Shown one piece after another: positions 3,476 to 12,605 of a DNA stretch of 21,143 nt (position 1 is the stretch's first letter; every line of letters starts with the position of its first letter). Source of the stretch: a virus; IMG/VR virus record IMGVR_UViG_3300035145_000346, positions 1-21,143 of that record; one strand, 5' to 3'. A program made the position numbers and the translations under genes. The notes beneath the pieces were generated by a model. The model was not told the origin of the DNA, did not search any database, and worked only from the letters and a program-made list of their open reading frames with translations.

Positions 3476-5860
3476 ATGCCTAGCAATTATAAGACAGTTA
3501 TTAACTTTAGAGATGGGATTCAGGTAAACACCGATGATCTCATCTCTAATAACGGTCTGGTGGGTATTGGCAGTACCATACCTAGACAAGAGTTAGATGT
3601 TCGTGGTAATGTTGTTGCCGATGGCAACACTGAGTTAAATAATCTAAATGTAGTAGGATACACAACTTACTACGGTAATGTTAATGTTGCTGCTGGATAT
3701 TCGGTTGGTATTGGAACTACCGTACCAGAAGCAGACTTTCAAGTAGGTGTTGGATCTACAGGTTTCACTGTTACTTTGGCAGGTGTAGTTTCTGCTGCAC
3801 AGTATTATGGTGATGGTTCAACATTAAGCAATCTTCCTGTATCTGTATGGGTAAATCCTGGAGCAGGTAGTACAATCTATGCACTATATGATGTTGGAGT
3901 AGGCACCGAACAGACCCGAGATGGTGCCGACTTTGGTGTAGGATATGAAATTTATATGGATGCCAAGAGTGGCATCGCTACATTTGAAGGTGTAGAAGCA
4001 AAAAATATTACGGTTCGAGGTAATGCTAACCAAGGCAACATTACTGCTACTGGTGTTCTTGGTATCTCAACAGTTAATGCAACTAAGAGTATCTCTGCTC
4101 CTAGTTTCATTGGTACGATTACAAACGCAATTAGATCTGTTGTTGCAGCAGGTCTGACTGATTCTCCCGATATCACTGTAAGAAATGTTTATGGTGTAGG
4201 TGGTAACTTTACTGGCATCACAAGTTTCGGAACACTACAAATTAGTGGTGGTGTTGTTGGTGAGGGTGGTATTATTACTGCCACAACATTTAGTGGTACT
4301 GCATCCACTGCTGTTGGTGCTCAGACTGCATATAGTTTGCTGGGCGATCCCTCAATTCAGGTTGATTCTGTAGACATCCCTGGATTAAACAACACATTCT
4401 TAAGAAGCACTGGTATTTCTACTCTTGGTGGTGCTGTTTATGTAGATCAATTTATTGGTGTAGGTAACACAGTTGCTATCAGTGGTGATGCTGCTGGTTT
4501 CATTGGTACAGTTAGAATGGTCGGTGACCTGACTGTATCGGATAATATGACCCTCGGTGGTAACATTTCACTGGGTGGTAGTATTATTGGTGACCTGTCA
4601 GTATCTGACTTTGATGTTAATACATTGAATGTTGGTGCTGCTCTGTCTGTAACTGGTACATCTGAATTTACAGGACAAACTGATTTTGAAAGCAACATTA
4701 GTGTAGATGGTGTTTCTTCTCTCAATGGACTTGTTTCTGTTGGTGGTACGCTTACTGGTACATATGTAAATGGTGTCGAGTCTATAGTTACTAATCAGCG
4801 AGTTCTTGGTGTTTCTACAATTCAGGAAGCAGATGTAACCACACTGAAAGTTGCTGGTGACTTACTCGTTAGTGGTAGTGGTATCATTACATCGAATATA
4901 ATTGAAATCAATGGTCCGACAGGTATTATTTCTGCCAGATCAATTTTTGCAAATACTGGTGTTAGTACATTCCAAGATATCATTGTCAGTGGAGGCAACG
5001 GCACATTCATCAATGCAACATATATTGGTGTTAATACCGATGCCCGTCCTATTACTGAGGGTATCGCATTAGAAAGTCCATCAGAATTGTGGGTATCTGA
5101 GAAAACTGGTGTTGGTATTGGTTCTACCAGTGGTGATAGAGCATCTAATGTCAATTTCTATGTTGGCATGAATAGGGATGATACCACTGGTGAACTAATT
5201 GATACTCAGGCAATCTTTGAGACTAGTGTTGGTATTGGAACTACATTAGTTTCTACGAGTAACCGTGTAGAGATCTATAAAGATACTATTTTCTTTGGTG
5301 GAAATACTGGTCTTGGTGGAACTACTGCTGGCATTGGTGCTACGGCAGATATCCGAGTTGGATTTAATACTGTCAATCCCCAGTGTGCATTTGATATGAG
5401 AATGGCACAATCTCCATTGATTCTGCCACACTCTAAATTTGCTAACTCAATAGATAATGGAGGCATGGATGTCCAAGGTGATCGTGAAGGTTCTATATAC
5501 TATAACTCTCTAGACCACGAGTTCACTGTTTATTTTGATGATGACCAAGCGATTGGTCTTACGACCGATCTCGGTTTCGATATCATGGAAGAGAGAGGAT
5601 TCCAAGGGCGCATTGTTGACTCTGAAAATTATAGAGACAATACTGAGGCACCTATCAATCCACCCGAATTCCCTCCTGGATGGTCTACATCCAACTTAGT
5701 GTATAATATTCAGCATGAGCAATTCCAAGTCTTTGGTGGTGACAACATCTGGAGATCTCTGGTCGGTAGTGCTACTAGTGGCATCTCAATGTCCGTCAAT
5801 GGATCTACGCTAACTATTACTGTTACTGGCGTCGGTTCTGTAGATCTAACATTAACTTGA
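3476..5860 (+). CDS. Tail fibre-like structural protein, beta-repeat type
   Basis: This encodes 794 residues. The N-terminus has repeats of a kind common in phage fibres: VGIGS at 29-33, VGIGTTVP at 77-84, and a YYGDGSTLSNL motif at 110-120. The central part (roughly 240-480) is a series of short Gly/Ser/Thr/Val strands of the form xLxVxGxxxxxG, typical of trimeric triple-beta-helix shafts. The C-terminus is another beta-rich stretch ending VDLTLT, with no S74 domain, so it would have to trimerise without that chaperone. Neighbours are fibre genes and it follows a late promoter element, which supports a virion role. It is probably a tail fibre or baseplate-associated fibre; the receptor is unknown. 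The start is the first ATG after the promoter; no strong Shine-Dalgarno is visible. Confidence 0.75.
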   Translation: MPSNYKTVINFRDGIQVNTDDLISNNGLVGIGSTIPRQELDVRGNVVADGNTELNNLNVVGYTTYYGNVNVAAGYSVGIGTTVPEADFQVGVGSTGFTVTLAGVVSAAQYYGDGSTLSNLPVSVWVNPGAGSTIYALYDVGVGTEQTRDGADFGVGYEIYMDAKSGIATFEGVEAKNITVRGNANQGNITATGVLGISTVNATKSISAPSFIGTITNAIRSVVAAGLTDSPDITVRNVYGVGGNFTGITSFGTLQISGGVVGEGGIITATTFSGTASTAVGAQTAYSLLGDPSIQVDSVDIPGLNNTFLRSTGISTLGGAVYVDQFIGVGNTVAISGDAAGFIGTVRMVGDLTVSDNMTLGGNISLGGSIIGDLSVSDFDVNTLNVGAALSVTGTSEFTGQTDFESNISVDGVSSLNGLVSVGGTLTGTYVNGVESIVTNQRVLGVSTIQEADVTTLKVAGDLLVSGSGIITSNIIEINGPTGIISARSIFANTGVSTFQDIIVSGGNGTFINATYIGVNTDARPITEGIALESPSELWVSEKTGVGIGSTSGDRASNVNFYVGMNRDDTTGELIDTQAIFETSVGIGTTLVSTSNRVEIYKDTIFFGGNTGLGGTTAGIGATADIRVGFNTVNPQCAFDMRMAQSPLILPHSKFANSIDNGGMDVQGDREGSIYYNSLDHEFTVYFDDDQAIGLTTDLGFDIMEERGFQGRIVDSENYRDNTEAPINPPEFPPGWSTSNLVYNIQHEQFQVFGGDNIWRSLVGSATSGISMSVNGSTLTITVTGVGSVDLTLT

Positions 5861-5866
5861 TAAGAT

Positions 5867-7519
5867 ATGGCATATAACGATTGGTCAAATACTACGCAGA
5901 CATTATTAAATGGTTCTGCAGGTACTCAAATCTCATTCGGTGAGATCAGGGCAGCGATTGGTGACACTACAGCATCAATCTCTGCTCGTGAGTTGCATCG
6001 AGTAACTGATCTTGATGCGCCATATGATTTTAATACAGGAAAATATCCATCATCTACTGGTCAGGCACACCTACCATATGTTTTAGATGCTACTGAGAAT
6101 ATTGGTGTAGGTACAACTGGAGCATTATCTCCTCAAGATGTCAGAGGGGTGATTCAAGAATATGTTCTAGAACAAGATCCCAACACCGAAGAAGATAGAT
6201 TTGATATCGGCACACTTTCTCCTGCTGGTGGTTCACCAGTAGCAGTAAACTGGAACTCTAATCTTAATAAGAATATCACGAAGTATCTCAGAGTTCGTGG
6301 TAGAATGAAGTCTGAGCAGGTAAGTCAACCAGCAGTATCTATTGCAAGTTCTGCATCATCTAACCTGAATGTATATGTACACAATTCACCATCATCGTAT
6401 GGTGTATATGGTGCTGGTGGTCAAAAAAATCCTGGAACAGGTAATCCTGGTCAACCTGGTGGACACGCAGTTAATGTTGCTAACCCTGGCGCTCCTGCTT
6501 CCCGTGTTGTATATGTAGAGTGCGAAGGTAGCACATCTAGAATTTATGGTGGCGGTGGCGGTGGTGCCGATGGCGCTGACGGTTCTAACGGATCTCCTGG
6601 TACTGGTGCTGCCTCTGGATCACCTGGTTCTCCTGGTAGCAAAGGTTCTAACGGATCTCCTGGATCTCCTGGTGGTAGTGGACAACCTGGTCAACCTGGT
6701 AGTGGTGGACAACAGAGATCAACAAAGAAATGGTCTTATCAGCAGAGAAGAACTGTTGACCAATCTAGAAGACAGGAAAGACGGAGTAGAAGAGGTTGGT
6801 GGGGTAGAGGTAGAAAGAGAAGAAGAAAAGAATATCAGAACAAATTCCAAGAGAGGAGAACAGTCAATAATTCAAAACAGCAGAGAACTTACTGCTCTGG
6901 TGGATCTGGCGGATCAGGCGGCGGCGGAGGCGGCGGCGGATCTGGTGGTGGCGGTGGTGCTGGCGGCGGTGGCGGTCAGGGCGGTTCCGCTGGTACTAAT
7001 GGTGGCGGCGGAACTGGTGGTGTTAAGGGTTATGGTGCAGACGGTAGAGGGTGGAACAATAAGACCACTCTCTTAGGTGGTTCTGCTGGTACTCCTGGCA
7101 CACCTGGACAACCTGGCACACCTGCTGGTAGCGGCACTCCTGGTGGTGGTGGACAACCTGGTGGTCCTGGATCAGGTGGCGGTGGCGGTGGTTCAGGTCA
7201 ACCTGGTACTCCTGCTGGTTGTGGTGCTGGTACTCCTGGCACACCTGGAACCCCTGGTTCTCCTGGACAACCTGGACAACCTGGTGGTAAAGGTGGTAGC
7301 GGGCAACCTGGACAACCTGGCACCCCTGGTGGTTCTGGTCAACCTGGTCAACCTGGCACTAAAGGTGGTGATGGTGGAGACTGGGGTATGCCTGGACAAC
7401 CTGCATCTAGATCTGGTTCTGGTGGTGCCGCTGGTCGTGGTGTAAATGGTTCTAACTACACAGTAATTAACGGTCCTAACCAACCTGGCGGCACAGGAGA
7501 TATTAGAGTATTGTATTGA
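5867..7519 (+). CDS. Collagen-like, glycine-rich fibre/adhesin protein with Arg-rich insert
   Basis: This encodes 550 residues. Residues 1-180 are an ordinary globular-type sequence with a fibre-like start (MAYNDWSNTTQTLLNGS). From about 185 it becomes Gly-rich. Collagen-type Gly-X-Y triplets lie near 240-281 and 405-515 (GSPGSPG, GTPGTPG, GQPGQPG), with proline nearly always in position Y. Between them are an abrupt basic segment (about 282-343, 17 Arg and 6 Lys) and a polyglycine tract (344-385). The C-terminus returns to a short globular tail ending GDIRVLY. Glycine-rich adhesins at fibre tips are known in T4-like phages, and collagen-like triplets are known in phage fibres, so a host-binding or fibre-rod role is likely. 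It starts six bases after the upstream fibre stop, and the oxygenase gene starts five bases after its own stop. Confidence 0.75.
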   Translation: MAYNDWSNTTQTLLNGSAGTQISFGEIRAAIGDTTASISARELHRVTDLDAPYDFNTGKYPSSTGQAHLPYVLDATENIGVGTTGALSPQDVRGVIQEYVLEQDPNTEEDRFDIGTLSPAGGSPVAVNWNSNLNKNITKYLRVRGRMKSEQVSQPAVSIASSASSNLNVYVHNSPSSYGVYGAGGQKNPGTGNPGQPGGHAVNVANPGAPASRVVYVECEGSTSRIYGGGGGGADGADGSNGSPGTGAASGSPGSPGSKGSNGSPGSPGGSGQPGQPGSGGQQRSTKKWSYQQRRTVDQSRRQERRSRRGWWGRGRKRRRKEYQNKFQERRTVNNSKQQRTYCSGGSGGSGGGGGGGGSGGGGGAGGGGGQGGSAGTNGGGGTGGVKGYGADGRGWNNKTTLLGGSAGTPGTPGQPGTPAGSGTPGGGGQPGGPGSGGGGGGSGQPGTPAGCGAGTPGTPGTPGSPGQPGQPGGKGGSGQPGQPGTPGGSGQPGQPGTKGGDGGDWGMPGQPASRSGSGGAAGRGVNGSNYTVINGPNQPGGTGDIRVLY

Positions 7520-7524
7520 TTTGA

Positions 7525-8121
7525 ATGTCTGTTTATCCTATACCTCCATCACCCACCTGGGATGATGTTGACTTTGAAGTATACGAAGATGGGTTCACTA
7601 AAGAAGAGTGTGAGCGTATCATTGCTCTAGGTGAATCCCTAAATGCCATAGATTCTATCGTTGGAGATACCAACGATGATCAGAAGGTGTCAAATTCTAT
7701 TCGTAAGTCTAAGAACTCATGGATAGAATTGAATGAGACATCTGAGTGGATTTATGCTAGACTGGGTAAAATCGCCAACGACATCAATGGTATGTTTTGG
7801 CGTTTTGACCTAAATGGATTCTATGAGGATCTACAATATACTCGATACAATGAAGACGGGGACTTCTATGGTTGGCATATTGATAATGGTATGCGATCAG
7901 GAGATCCTCCAAGAAAGTTGAGTATTGTAGTCCAACTCTCTGATCCAAGTGAATATGAGGGTGGTGACTTAGAAGTTCATGCTACACAGCATAGTAAGAT
8001 TGCTAAGTCACAAGGATTGGTCACAGTTTTTCCAAGTTATAGACTACATCAGGTAACACCTGTTACTGCGGGAGTACGCAGAAGTCTGGTAGTATGGTTA
8101 TGTGGACCCGCATTTAGGTGA
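7525..8121 (+). CDS. Fe(II)/2-oxoglutarate-dependent oxygenase, prolyl 4-hydroxylase-like
   Basis: This encodes 198 residues, close to the usual length for PKHD/PiuC-type members of the prolyl 4-hydroxylase family. These enzymes hydroxylate a substrate using O2 and 2-oxoglutarate, releasing succinate and CO2. The iron triad is visible: His118 and Asp120 in GWHID, and His175 in YRLHQVTPVTAGVRR. Arg185, ten residues after the last His, is placed to bind 2-oxoglutarate. The core strand KLSIVVQLSDPSEYEGGDLE is also typical. There is no signal peptide or membrane segment, so it acts in the cytoplasm of the infected cell. It sits five bases behind the collagen-like gene, suggesting co-expression and that protein as substrate. 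2OG oxygenases are frequent in cyanophages, usually with unknown substrate, so the substrate is inference. Confidence 0.88.
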   Translation: MSVYPIPPSPTWDDVDFEVYEDGFTKEECERIIALGESLNAIDSIVGDTNDDQKVSNSIRKSKNSWIELNETSEWIYARLGKIANDINGMFWRFDLNGFYEDLQYTRYNEDGDFYGWHIDNGMRSGDPPRKLSIVVQLSDPSEYEGGDLEVHATQHSKIAKSQGLVTVFPSYRLHQVTPVTAGVRRSLVVWLCGPAFR

Positions 8122-9929: not shown

Positions 9930-11297
9930 ATGGGCAGAAAGATTGCTGTTGTTGGCATGTCTCCTGGTGGATTAGTGCAGTTGGCATCCATGGTGAAGGC
10001 ACGAAATGCCTTCCATGAAGAATATGGAGATGATGAATATACTCTGATTCATGACCCTGATAAGGTCAATAATTATATGCTGTCTGGCACAAATCCAGCA
10101 TATTTTGATGAACTGGTTGAGGTATTGAATCTACCTCGTAGATATTTGATGAAATATGCAAATTCTACTGATAGTGCTGGATATAAGTTTGTTGGATGGG
10201 GTGCAGGCAAGAAGAATTTCTTTGCCACATATAATCATCAACTTGGCGCACACTTTGATATTGTTGCCCTCAGAGCGAGATTATTGAAAGAGGGTGCAAA
10301 GGCATGGGGATATGGTGTAAGTATTGTAGAGCAAAAGATTGATGGATTTGCTGTTGAAGAAGATGGATGTGTTGTCAATGGTGTTAAGTATGACTATGTA
10401 ATTGACTGCACTGATAAAGAACCACTGTATGATCCTGGTTCATATGGCGAACCAAAATTCTGTCTTGTAGATACTGCTCTCGTCGTAGAAAGACCATTAC
10501 CAGGTGATTGGGATTATACGATGGAAGTTGCTGCTAAGTATGGACATATCACTGGTATGCCATATCAAGATAAGCAAATTTGGTCTTATAATTTCAAGAG
10601 AAAGGATCATGATGAGAATGAGATCTTTGCTGACATGCAAACATTCTTCCCAGATGAAGATCTAAAATCATATAAGTGGGACAAGATTGAATACAATCCA
10701 TCAACATCCGCATATTTGATTGAGTACGGCGGAAGATATATCAGAAATGGTGCTGCCGCAGTTCAGGCAGATCCTCTCGGTGGTGTACATCATGAACTCA
10801 CACAGTTATTTGCTAACTTCATCGACGAATATCTGTATAGAGCTGCGGAACAGGACAAAGTTCAAGTGCTCGAAGAGATCCAAATGGATTTTACTGATGC
10901 GCTAAATGACTCTTACATGGGTTATATGGCGTTCTTGTATCATCTAGGTGCGAAACCTAAGACCGCATTTTGGAAGAATGGTAAGGAACTTGCGCGGGAG
11001 TTCCTCAAAGGTCCCGCATTTTTGCATCCTGCGTTCTTCCCTGGTAAAGAATGGTTAGATGAAGTTCTCAGTGAAAAGTGGGGACAGAAAGAATATATGC
11101 AGATATTAGATCAAAATGATGAGGTAGAAGATGCTGGTGGTAGAATTAGTAAGATGCCTCTAATTGTGATGAGTGATTATTGCTTATTCTTCGATCTTGC
11201 AAAGGGTCTAAATGCACCATGGGCGAAGTATTTGACTGGTCTTGAAACAGTTCATCCTCCCGAAAAGTTTGGCACTATTGGTTACGATTATTTCTAA
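9930..11297 (+). CDS. Tryptophan-halogenase-family paralogue lacking catalytic motifs
   Basis: This encodes 455 residues and is clearly homologous to the next gene along its whole length: shared KF(V/I)GWG, YD(Y/F)VIDC, DWDYT, (R/K)NG near the middle, and the C-terminal layout. The family consists of FAD-dependent oxidoreductases that halogenate tryptophan or similar aromatics. Here the diagnostic residues are gone. The dinucleotide loop reads GMSPGG (9-14). The GES(A)T motif is replaced by SGTNP (52-56). The catalytic Lys before the GWG motif is not a Lys. WxWxIP is reduced to HITGMP (206-211), and PLES is reduced to PLGG (282-285). It may be a non-catalytic partner of the second protein, or use a different chemistry. 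The downstream gene begins immediately after its stop codon, so they are cotranscribed. Halogenase-like genes are known in cyanomyoviruses without proven activity. Confidence 0.75.
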   Translation: MGRKIAVVGMSPGGLVQLASMVKARNAFHEEYGDDEYTLIHDPDKVNNYMLSGTNPAYFDELVEVLNLPRRYLMKYANSTDSAGYKFVGWGAGKKNFFATYNHQLGAHFDIVALRARLLKEGAKAWGYGVSIVEQKIDGFAVEEDGCVVNGVKYDYVIDCTDKEPLYDPGSYGEPKFCLVDTALVVERPLPGDWDYTMEVAAKYGHITGMPYQDKQIWSYNFKRKDHDENEIFADMQTFFPDEDLKSYKWDKIEYNPSTSAYLIEYGGRYIRNGAAAVQADPLGGVHHELTQLFANFIDEYLYRAAEQDKVQVLEEIQMDFTDALNDSYMGYMAFLYHLGAKPKTAFWKNGKELAREFLKGPAFLHPAFFPGKEWLDEVLSEKWGQKEYMQILDQNDEVEDAGGRISKMPLIVMSDYCLFFDLAKGLNAPWAKYLTGLETVHPPEKFGTIGYDYF

Positions 11298-12605
11298 ATG
11301 AGGAAAATTGCTGTTATTGGTGCAGGAGTGGTTGGTATTAACTGTCTCCTGCGATTGATTGACGAAAGAGATCCTGGAGAGGTTGAAATAGTCTGGATTT
11401 ATGACTCATCCTCTCCCATATTTGGTATTGGTGAGTCTACTACACCTGATCTACCATCACAGATTTCACATACAACTAATCTGAGCATTTACCATGCTCA
11501 GCAAGCATTTGATGCCACAGTTAAGTATGGAAATAAGTTTATTGGATGGGGAGATAAGCAGAATTTTATACACTGGTTAGACTTTCATTATCATGGTATT
11601 CACTTTGACACATACAAGTTTAGTAAGCATTTCTTAGAATGTTTGCCAGAGAATACTTACGACTTCACACTATTAGATCAGAAGATTACTGATGTTAGTA
11701 TTACAAACTTTGGCATGTATCTCAACGGTGAGAGATATGATTTTGTCATCGATTGCTCTGGTAAATCATTACTAGACCAAGATAGTTACTTCGATATCCC
11801 ATTCCCTACTGTCAATACATGTCTTGCTGTCAGGTTACCTGAACCAGCAGATTGGGACTATACAATTACATATGCTCATAAGAATGGGTGGATGTTCGGT
11901 ATACCATTGAAGAACAGACGCACCTGGGGATATTGCTATGACTCTACGATTACAACAGAAGAGGAAGCATTAGAAGATTTTAAGACTATCATCAAACGCG
12001 ATGATATTGACTACAGAAAGATTGAATGGGAGCAGAAACTATCTGCATACATGGTACATCCCAGCGGCAGATATGCTAAGAATGGCAATGCGCTAGGATT
12101 TCTTGAACCATTAGAAAGTTTTGCTGGTGCATATTATGATAAAGCATCAGATGAAATGGTAGAATATGCATGTCGGGGACATATGCATGTGCATGGGACA
12201 GATGAACTGAATGAATGGTATTATAATGAGATGGTTGATGATTGGATCAAGAATCTTGCATGGATCTATCACTTTGGGTCGATATATGATACTCCATTCT
12301 GGAGGAGAACAAAGTCTATTGCTAAACAATATCTGAACGATCCTGATGTATATAAGAACAATAAGAAAGAGTCATTTACTGATGAACTATGGCAGAGAGT
12401 CTCTTATGATGATGATCTAAAGCGCAAAGCAGTGCTGCATGAGTTAGAAAAAGAGGTGGGATCTTTGAACTCCTTTGTTAGAAACTATCGAGACTTTGCA
12501 GAGATGGTATATGGCATGGGCGTAGAATACGCTGAGAGGTATCCAATAACCTCGCCGATGATTGTATGCCCTGAACCACATGGAGAACTGTCACAGGAGA
12601 TCTGA
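11298..12605 (+). CDS. Flavin-dependent tryptophan-halogenase-like protein
   Basis: This encodes 435 residues, slightly shorter than PrnA/RebH-type enzymes. The FAD-binding GAGVVG lies at 8-13 and GESTTP at 45-50. Lys76, five residues before FIGWG (81-85), is placed like the catalytic Lys of PrnA. GWMFGIPL (197-204) is a WxWxIP variant with Phe for the second Trp. FLEPLES (268-274) gives the Glu-Ser equivalent to PrnA E346/S347. By family, reduced flavin, O2 and halide would form HOCl/HOBr, which passes to the Lys and then an aromatic substrate; a separate flavin reductase is needed and none is seen here. The ATG directly follows the TAA of the preceding paralogue. Its end overlaps an early promoter. 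The substrate is unknown, and a non-halogenating oxidase is possible. Confidence 0.8.
   Translation: MRKIAVIGAGVVGINCLLRLIDERDPGEVEIVWIYDSSSPIFGIGESTTPDLPSQISHTTNLSIYHAQQAFDATVKYGNKFIGWGDKQNFIHWLDFHYHGIHFDTYKFSKHFLECLPENTYDFTLLDQKITDVSITNFGMYLNGERYDFVIDCSGKSLLDQDSYFDIPFPTVNTCLAVRLPEPADWDYTITYAHKNGWMFGIPLKNRRTWGYCYDSTITTEEEALEDFKTIIKRDDIDYRKIEWEQKLSAYMVHPSGRYAKNGNALGFLEPLESFAGAYYDKASDEMVEYACRGHMHVHGTDELNEWYYNEMVDDWIKNLAWIYHFGSIYDTPFWRRTKSIAKQYLNDPDVYKNNKKESFTDELWQRVSYDDDLKRKAVLHELEKEVGSLNSFVRNYRDFAEMVYGMGVEYAERYPITSPMIVCPEPHGELSQEI

Follow-up and report, generated by a model that had tools for sequence, protein, structure and literature searches.

The virus record IMGVR_UViG_3300035145_000346 of IMG/VR, analyzed from position 1 to 21,143 (these 21,143 bases are called the window), contains a gene for a collagen-like fiber followed at once by a gene for a 2-oxoglutarate (2OG)-Fe(II) oxygenase. 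The two genes are best read as a substrate and its enzyme, the oxygenase hydroxylating the prolines of Gly-X-Pro triplets and so stabilizing the fiber; a probability of about 0.7 is given to this reading, in which we infer the reaction, the hydroxylated atom, its timing, and the stabilizing role. Because the fiber travels with the enzyme, and unrelated phages pair the same oxygenase clade with their own collagens, marine and unrelated aquatic phages probably hydroxylate their own fibers.

The Fiber and Its Adjoining Oxygenase

The fiber open reading frame (ORF; 5867-7519, 550 amino acids) and the oxygenase ORF (7525-8121, 198 amino acids) both lie on the plus strand. An earlier note on this DNA had placed the oxygenase five bases 3′ of the fiber gene, with an intact His118/Asp120/His175/Arg185 set, and had seen about thirty X-Pro-Gly sites in the fiber, mostly in Gly-X-Pro triplets. 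The gap is indeed 5 nucleotides (nt), the residues stand at those numbers, and counting gave 31 Pro-Gly (PG) sites in a protein with 45 Pro and 146 Gly residues. In the repeat region (residues 190-540), G-X-P-G occurs 27 times and G-P-X-G never, and the 29 PG sites found there exceed what 20,000 composition-preserving shuffles produced (12.5 on average, 24 at most). Proline stands before glycine mainly in QPG (12), TPG (7), and SPG (6).

A whole-fiber tblastn search in phages gave no matches, probably because of low-complexity filtering. The fiber survey was an IMG/VR scan with the N-terminal domain of the protein, which gave 28 loci (L numbers below); in this and the other locus scans the figures are those among the 80-120 matches listed, and the loci are short. 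Each of the 24 close fiber homologues (62-68% identical) has 28-50 PG sites, with 16-39 Pro in the Y position of the Gly-X-Y triplet and 0-1 in X. All 24 have the oxygenase gene 3′ of the fiber on the same strand, at a distance of 3-9 nt in 23 loci and of 848 nt in one. The five remote homologues (L466-L469 and S-SRM01) have 1-2 PG sites each and are without the oxygenase: the match in L466 was weak (28.5 bits), and the complete S-SRM01 genome (240,842 bases) gave no match to the enzyme profile in a search in which five control records matched. The enzyme thus tracks the X-Pro-Gly sites across fiber homologues, both being present together or absent together; the comparison covers few lineages and carries no direction of change.

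A second, diverged oxygenase copy was observed right after the first, behind the fiber gene, in L457 (7536-8087), L458 (7476-8039), L461, L464, and L465; the copies of L457 and L458 are 42-44% identical to the enzyme of the window.

Family and Fold of the Oxygenase

The oxygenase matches PF13640 with 61.8 bits (cutoff 27) and also phrog_61. The iron-binding triad is formed by H118-x-D120 (7876-7884) and H175 (8047-8049), with R185 (8077-8079) as the presumed ligand of the 2OG carboxylate; all four residues, encoded on the plus strand, are invariant among 48 aligned homologues. The AlphaFold2 model, like that of the fiber built from alignments of the window and IMG/VR locus rows only, is confident, with a predicted local distance difference test (pLDDT) score of 90.1. 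Its best Foldseek matches were a PKHD-type hydroxylase (3dkq, E 9e-12), the prolyl 4-hydroxylase (P4H) of Pseudomonas putida (4iw3), and human PHD2, and the closest solved enzymes by sequence are the PKHD-type Sbal_3634 and PiuC. A profile search reached EGLN1 and the prolyl 4-hydroxylases 5c5t, 3itq, 5hv0, and 2jig, entries that include the Bacillus, Chlamydomonas, and PBCV-1 enzymes. Against the YbiX/PiuC equivalogs of NCBIfam PRK05467 the best score was 70.7 bits, under cutoffs of 143 or more.

Animal collagen P4H (C-P4H) uses Lys as the 2OG carboxylate ligand and has a separate peptide-substrate-binding domain. An animal-type C-P4H identity was ruled out by Arg185 at the ligand position and by the single 198-residue domain. 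Judged from its sequence, the oxygenase belongs to PF13640 and, within the superfamily, to the part that resembles prolyl hydroxylases; it is neither a C-P4H nor a YbiX/PiuC equivalog. Its first assignment to the collagen P4H family therefore stands in the wide sense of prolyl 4-hydroxylase kinship, seen in both profile and fold, but the enzyme is nearer to PKHD and PHD proteins than to animal collagen P4H.

Oxygenase Clades and Their Neighbors

A scan with the oxygenase itself gave, as the best 80 loci listed, sequences nearly all 44-51% identical to the enzyme of the window; their sample types suggest that these phages are freshwater ones. The loci, with the window included, were clustered, at least 2 kb upstream being required, and a collagen-like ORF was counted when it lay within 3 kb. 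Such an ORF was present in 12 of the 13 clusters of the window's clade, 11 of them with Y-proline, vs. none of 12 in a phage paralogue clade made up mostly of cultured cyanophages (Fisher 3e-6). Outside their Gly-rich parts the freshwater fibers have no detectable similarity to the marine fiber family of the window, and so this oxygenase clade is paired with at least two fiber families. The association of fiber and oxygenase across phages, named in the earlier note as a test of its proposal, was thus borne out: the pair is conserved, is jointly absent in remote homologues, and recurs with an unrelated fiber family. The same note had offered the collagen as a concrete substrate for the 2OG oxygenases of cyanophages, which applies to one clade and not in general, most of the paralogues in cultured cyanophages having no collagen neighbor; a general rule of collagen pairing for these enzymes was rejected on the 0/12 count. 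No cultured phage belonging to the window's clade came out of a search for one, and identity to the best cultured-phage matches does not exceed about 41%.

Pairing among cellular relatives was likewise considered and dropped, since 78 of 80 have no paired fiber and the other two are on contigs that carry a phage fiber gene. These two (L537 and L538), binned in Euryarchaeota and Rhodobiaceae metagenome-assembled genomes, are probably mis-binned phage contigs, and L538 also has a DUF6267-like sequence 3′. The PG-rich ORFs of the cellular loci L547, L570, L594, and L616 are not fibers of the paired kind.

Another macromolecule, such as host EF-Tu, a ribosomal protein, DNA, or RNA, might be the target, with the position in the tail-fiber module being due to chance or hitch-hiking. 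EF-Tu is present in the solved structure of the P. putida P4H, which ranks third among the fold matches; a role in DNA repair has been proposed for cyanophage oxygenases (PMC2984593; PMC3037559), and several 2OG oxygenases occur in tail modules of cyanophages. A target of this kind is nevertheless improbable given the near-fixed gap of 3-9 nt to the fiber gene, the joint absence in remote fiber homologues, and the recurrence beside an unrelated collagen family; in addition, the paralogue clade without collagen neighbors forms a separate branch of the oxygenase tree.

Two further genes were observed at these loci. An oxygenase-like gene of another subfamily adjoins the first beside Y-proline collagens in L004 (5588-6193), L072 (5606-6199), L074 (4420-5001), and L077 (4417-5001), PF13640 being confirmed for it in L004 and L074. 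A conserved ORF of about 238 residues (LEFLC..GNIPEPYPARK) that has no Pfam match lies between collagen and oxygenase in L005 (4270-5001), L058, L060, L012, and L065.

The Residue Before Glycine

As a control, 113 phage collagen loci were collected with a proline-neutral DNA pattern, GGW at intervals of nine bases. The degenerate GXP pattern is palindromic and drew many out-of-frame or GC-rich matches, some of the Y-type loci (L170, L160, and L198) coming from it, and the GPX pattern, being biased, served for X-type loci alone. Among 97 unpaired phage collagens (at least 15 triplets, without oxygenase), Y-proline exceeded 10% in 7, with a pooled value of 1.6% and a median of 0. Where the oxygenase is of the window's clade, the paired collagens have Pro at 28% of Y positions pooled and at a median of 38% (rank test vs. 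the unpaired collagens, p=7e-12). In collagens paired with a sister clade of oxygenases, Pro occupies 35% of X positions and Lys 23% of Y positions (pooled; median 23%), vs. 4% pooled and a median of 0 for Lys in Y in unpaired phage collagens (p=7e-5). Fibers within a clade are related, with two main fiber families, and both p values ignore this shared descent and overstate independence. Of the 11 sister-clade loci reached through homology to the enzyme, 10 have Lys at 23% or more of Y positions; the L219 seed and six loci of this clade were picked up with the GPX pattern, a selection for Pro in X but not for Lys in Y. Only two changes on a 72-row oxygenase tree are needed to explain the X- and Y-type labels of the collagens.

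Between the sister-clade oxygenases and G-X-K or G-Q-K collagens with 23-44% Lys before Gly, the distance is as short as 14 nt and reaches about 1.8 kb, at loci including L425 (4992-5549; S-PRM1), L427 (S-CAM9), L488, L495, L500, L507, L512, L479, and L477; S-PRM1 and S-CAM9 are cultured phages. This association suggests lysyl hydroxylation of X-Lys-Gly collagens. It may tentatively be proposed, at less than even odds, that the collagen-modifying 2OG oxygenases of aquatic phages form clades with different target residues before Gly, Pro for the clade of the window and Lys for its sister, and that phages have evolved both prolyl and lysyl hydroxylation of fibers.

These compositions also bear on the possibility that the oxygenase modifies the fiber at some other residue (Asn, Asp, Lys, or a Pro elsewhere), the Gly-X-Pro pattern reflecting folding constraints alone. 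The collagens of the sister clade are rich in Lys rather than Pro before Gly, so that specificity is not fixed across clades, and two clusters of the window's own clade break the Y-proline pattern. Y-proline is nevertheless so rare in the unpaired phage collagens of the proline-neutral scan (above 10% in just 7/97) that folding alone does not demand it, and the residue before Gly is predicted by the enzyme clade; modification elsewhere in the fiber is thus unlikely, if somewhat less so than a target outside it.

Proposed Mechanism

The substrate of collagen P4Hs is X-Pro-Gly in chains that have yet to fold, and 4-hydroxyproline in the Y position stabilizes triple helices. In the proposed mechanism the oxygenase would use Fe(II), O2, and 2OG to hydroxylate prolines before glycine, mainly in GQP, GTP, and GSP triplets, on the newly made fiber chain. 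The reaction would take place before or during folding of the Gly-every-third tracts into polyproline-II-type assemblies, which could be a collagen triple helix or a polyglycine-II bundle, both using polyproline-II-like chains. Hydroxyproline would then stiffen or stabilize the tracts in a tail fiber or adhesin tip, a role proposed by analogy.

Several observations weigh against prolyl hydroxylation of the fiber, besides the shared descent mentioned above. Some unpaired phage collagens exceed 10% Y-proline with no window-type oxygenase in their truncated locus. Within the window's clade, L070/L067 lie beside a Gly-Pro-X collagen and L068 beside none. The enzyme, with Arg185, stands closer to the PKHD type than to collagen P4H. 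Finally, the structure model of the fiber is poor (pLDDT 51), and the Foldseek search with it gave no usable fold match, the solved gp38 of the S16/T2 polyglycine-II type included.

L105 (1-6900) also holds a collagen ORF, at least 2,299 residues long, with 604 triplets, 369 Pro in Y, and none in X; no oxygenase of the window's family was detected in that locus.

Fiber Architecture and Neighboring Genes

The Gly-rich fiber, which resembles an adhesin tip, begins with a non-repetitive N-terminal domain (residues 1-185; 5867-6421), the best-conserved part of the fiber alignments. It continues with a first Gly-every-third tract of GSP and GQP triplets (residues 230-283; 6554-6715), a basic variable insert with R-R-G-W-W-G (residues 284-343; 6716-6895), a poly-Gly tract of 15 triplets (residues 346-390; 6902-7036), the main Gly-X-Pro region of GTP, GQP, and GSP, which has most of the candidate hydroxylation sites (residues 405-505; 7079-7381), and a conserved C-terminal segment (GGDWG ... 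GDIRVxY; 7382-7516), all on the plus strand. The Gly-every-third tracts are interrupted, with 6-17 triplets each (longest 17). With 15.5 bits the protein stays under the cutoff of Pfam Collagen (PF01391; 27.2), which is passed by the fiber homologue of L461 (52.9 bits) and by the unrelated paired fiber of L058 (74.8 bits). The insert inside the Gly-rich region is strongly basic and varies in length and sequence (RRSRRGWWGRGRKRRRK); it looks like a candidate receptor-binding or variable recognition loop.

Upstream, a gene for a tail protein (phrog_3269; 3476-5860, plus strand) ends 6 nt before the fiber gene. Homologues of flavin-dependent (tryptophan) halogenases are located 3′ of the fiber-oxygenase pair, at 9930-11297 and 11298-12605 of the window, and likewise in nearly all fiber-homologue loci with enough sequence (L442-L465); the halogenase loci also include L319 (4355-5812), and in S-SRM01 a flavin halogenase lies directly 5′ of the homologous fiber. 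The fiber insert contains a nearly invariant Trp, W312, and halogenation of the fiber is a possible second modification.

The halogenase genes 3′ of the pair are also compatible with the oxygenase working on a small molecule, for instance a halogenated metabolite or glycan, or shifting 2OG levels and thus nitrogen signalling. Earlier work suggested that cyanophage oxygenases modulate 2OG (PMC3037559) and that jumbo cyanophages carry a cluster for a halogenated metabolite (PMC7824862). Proposals of this kind do not predict that the residue before Gly in neighboring collagens should correlate with the oxygenase clade, and a small-molecule role is considered very unlikely, the least probable of the alternatives weighed here.

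Comparison With Known Systems

If prolyl hydroxylation of the fiber holds, one clade among the many 2OG oxygenases of cyanophages gains a concrete candidate substrate; the roles put forward earlier for such enzymes are DNA repair (PMC2984593), 2OG/nitrogen signalling (PMC3037559), and metabolite synthesis (PMC7824862). The enzyme would then also be a compact tool for hydroxylating recombinant collagen produced in bacteria, and, should the lysine clade hold as well, cultured phages exist for virion study. In the literature searched, which left most subscription journals outside, no work linking phage collagens with these oxygenases was found. New to us are the occurrence in a phage, proline as the predicted target, the side-by-side genes, and the correlation of clade with residue; modification by a virus of its own collagen is known from mimivirus.

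Among cellular enzymes, the P4H of Bacillus anthracis (3itq, 5hv0) is a prokaryotic 2OG oxygenase that matches the profile of the window enzyme and is reported to act on X-Pro-Gly peptides, namely (PPG)n (PMC8968730); it differs in being distant in sequence (33 bits) and a cellular gene. The PKHD-type Sbal_3634, PiuC, and YbiX (3dkq, 9ghl) include the closest solved sequences and the top fold match, but the enzyme of the window is far under their equivalog cutoffs, and the chromosomal relatives of the phage enzyme have no collagen neighbors.

On the fiber side, the "gp37-gp38 adhesin tip complex" of S-SRM01 (QPX48018) shares with the window fiber the N-terminal domain, a Gly-rich body with an insert, and the conserved C-terminal segment; it differs in its single PG site, in a genome without an oxygenase of the window type, and in the halogenase directly 5′. 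The collagen-like tail fibers of E. coli prophages (EPclP; PMC3368898) are likewise phage fibers with collagen tracts, but they favor Pro in X and rarely have it in Y, whereas the fiber of the window shows the reverse, together with an oxygenase. Ghosh et al. (PMC3368898) attributed the scarcity of Y-proline among collagens of phages and bacteria to a lack of prolyl hydroxylases in both bacteria and viruses, and phage collagens have accordingly been held to lack hydroxyproline. In the phages described here the exception to Y-proline rarity coincides with the exception to enzyme absence, substrate pattern and candidate enzyme occurring together.

The nearest parallel is mimivirus, in which collagens and the lysyl hydroxylase/glucosyltransferase L230 likewise join a viral collagen-like protein to a 2OG oxygenase modifying the residue before Gly (Luther 2011, cited in PMC8968730; PMC5802723). 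Mimivirus is a giant virus of amoebae whose PLOD-type enzyme targets Lys, whereas the window belongs to a tailed phage with a PF13640, PKHD-like enzyme, a predicted Pro target, and adjacent genes.
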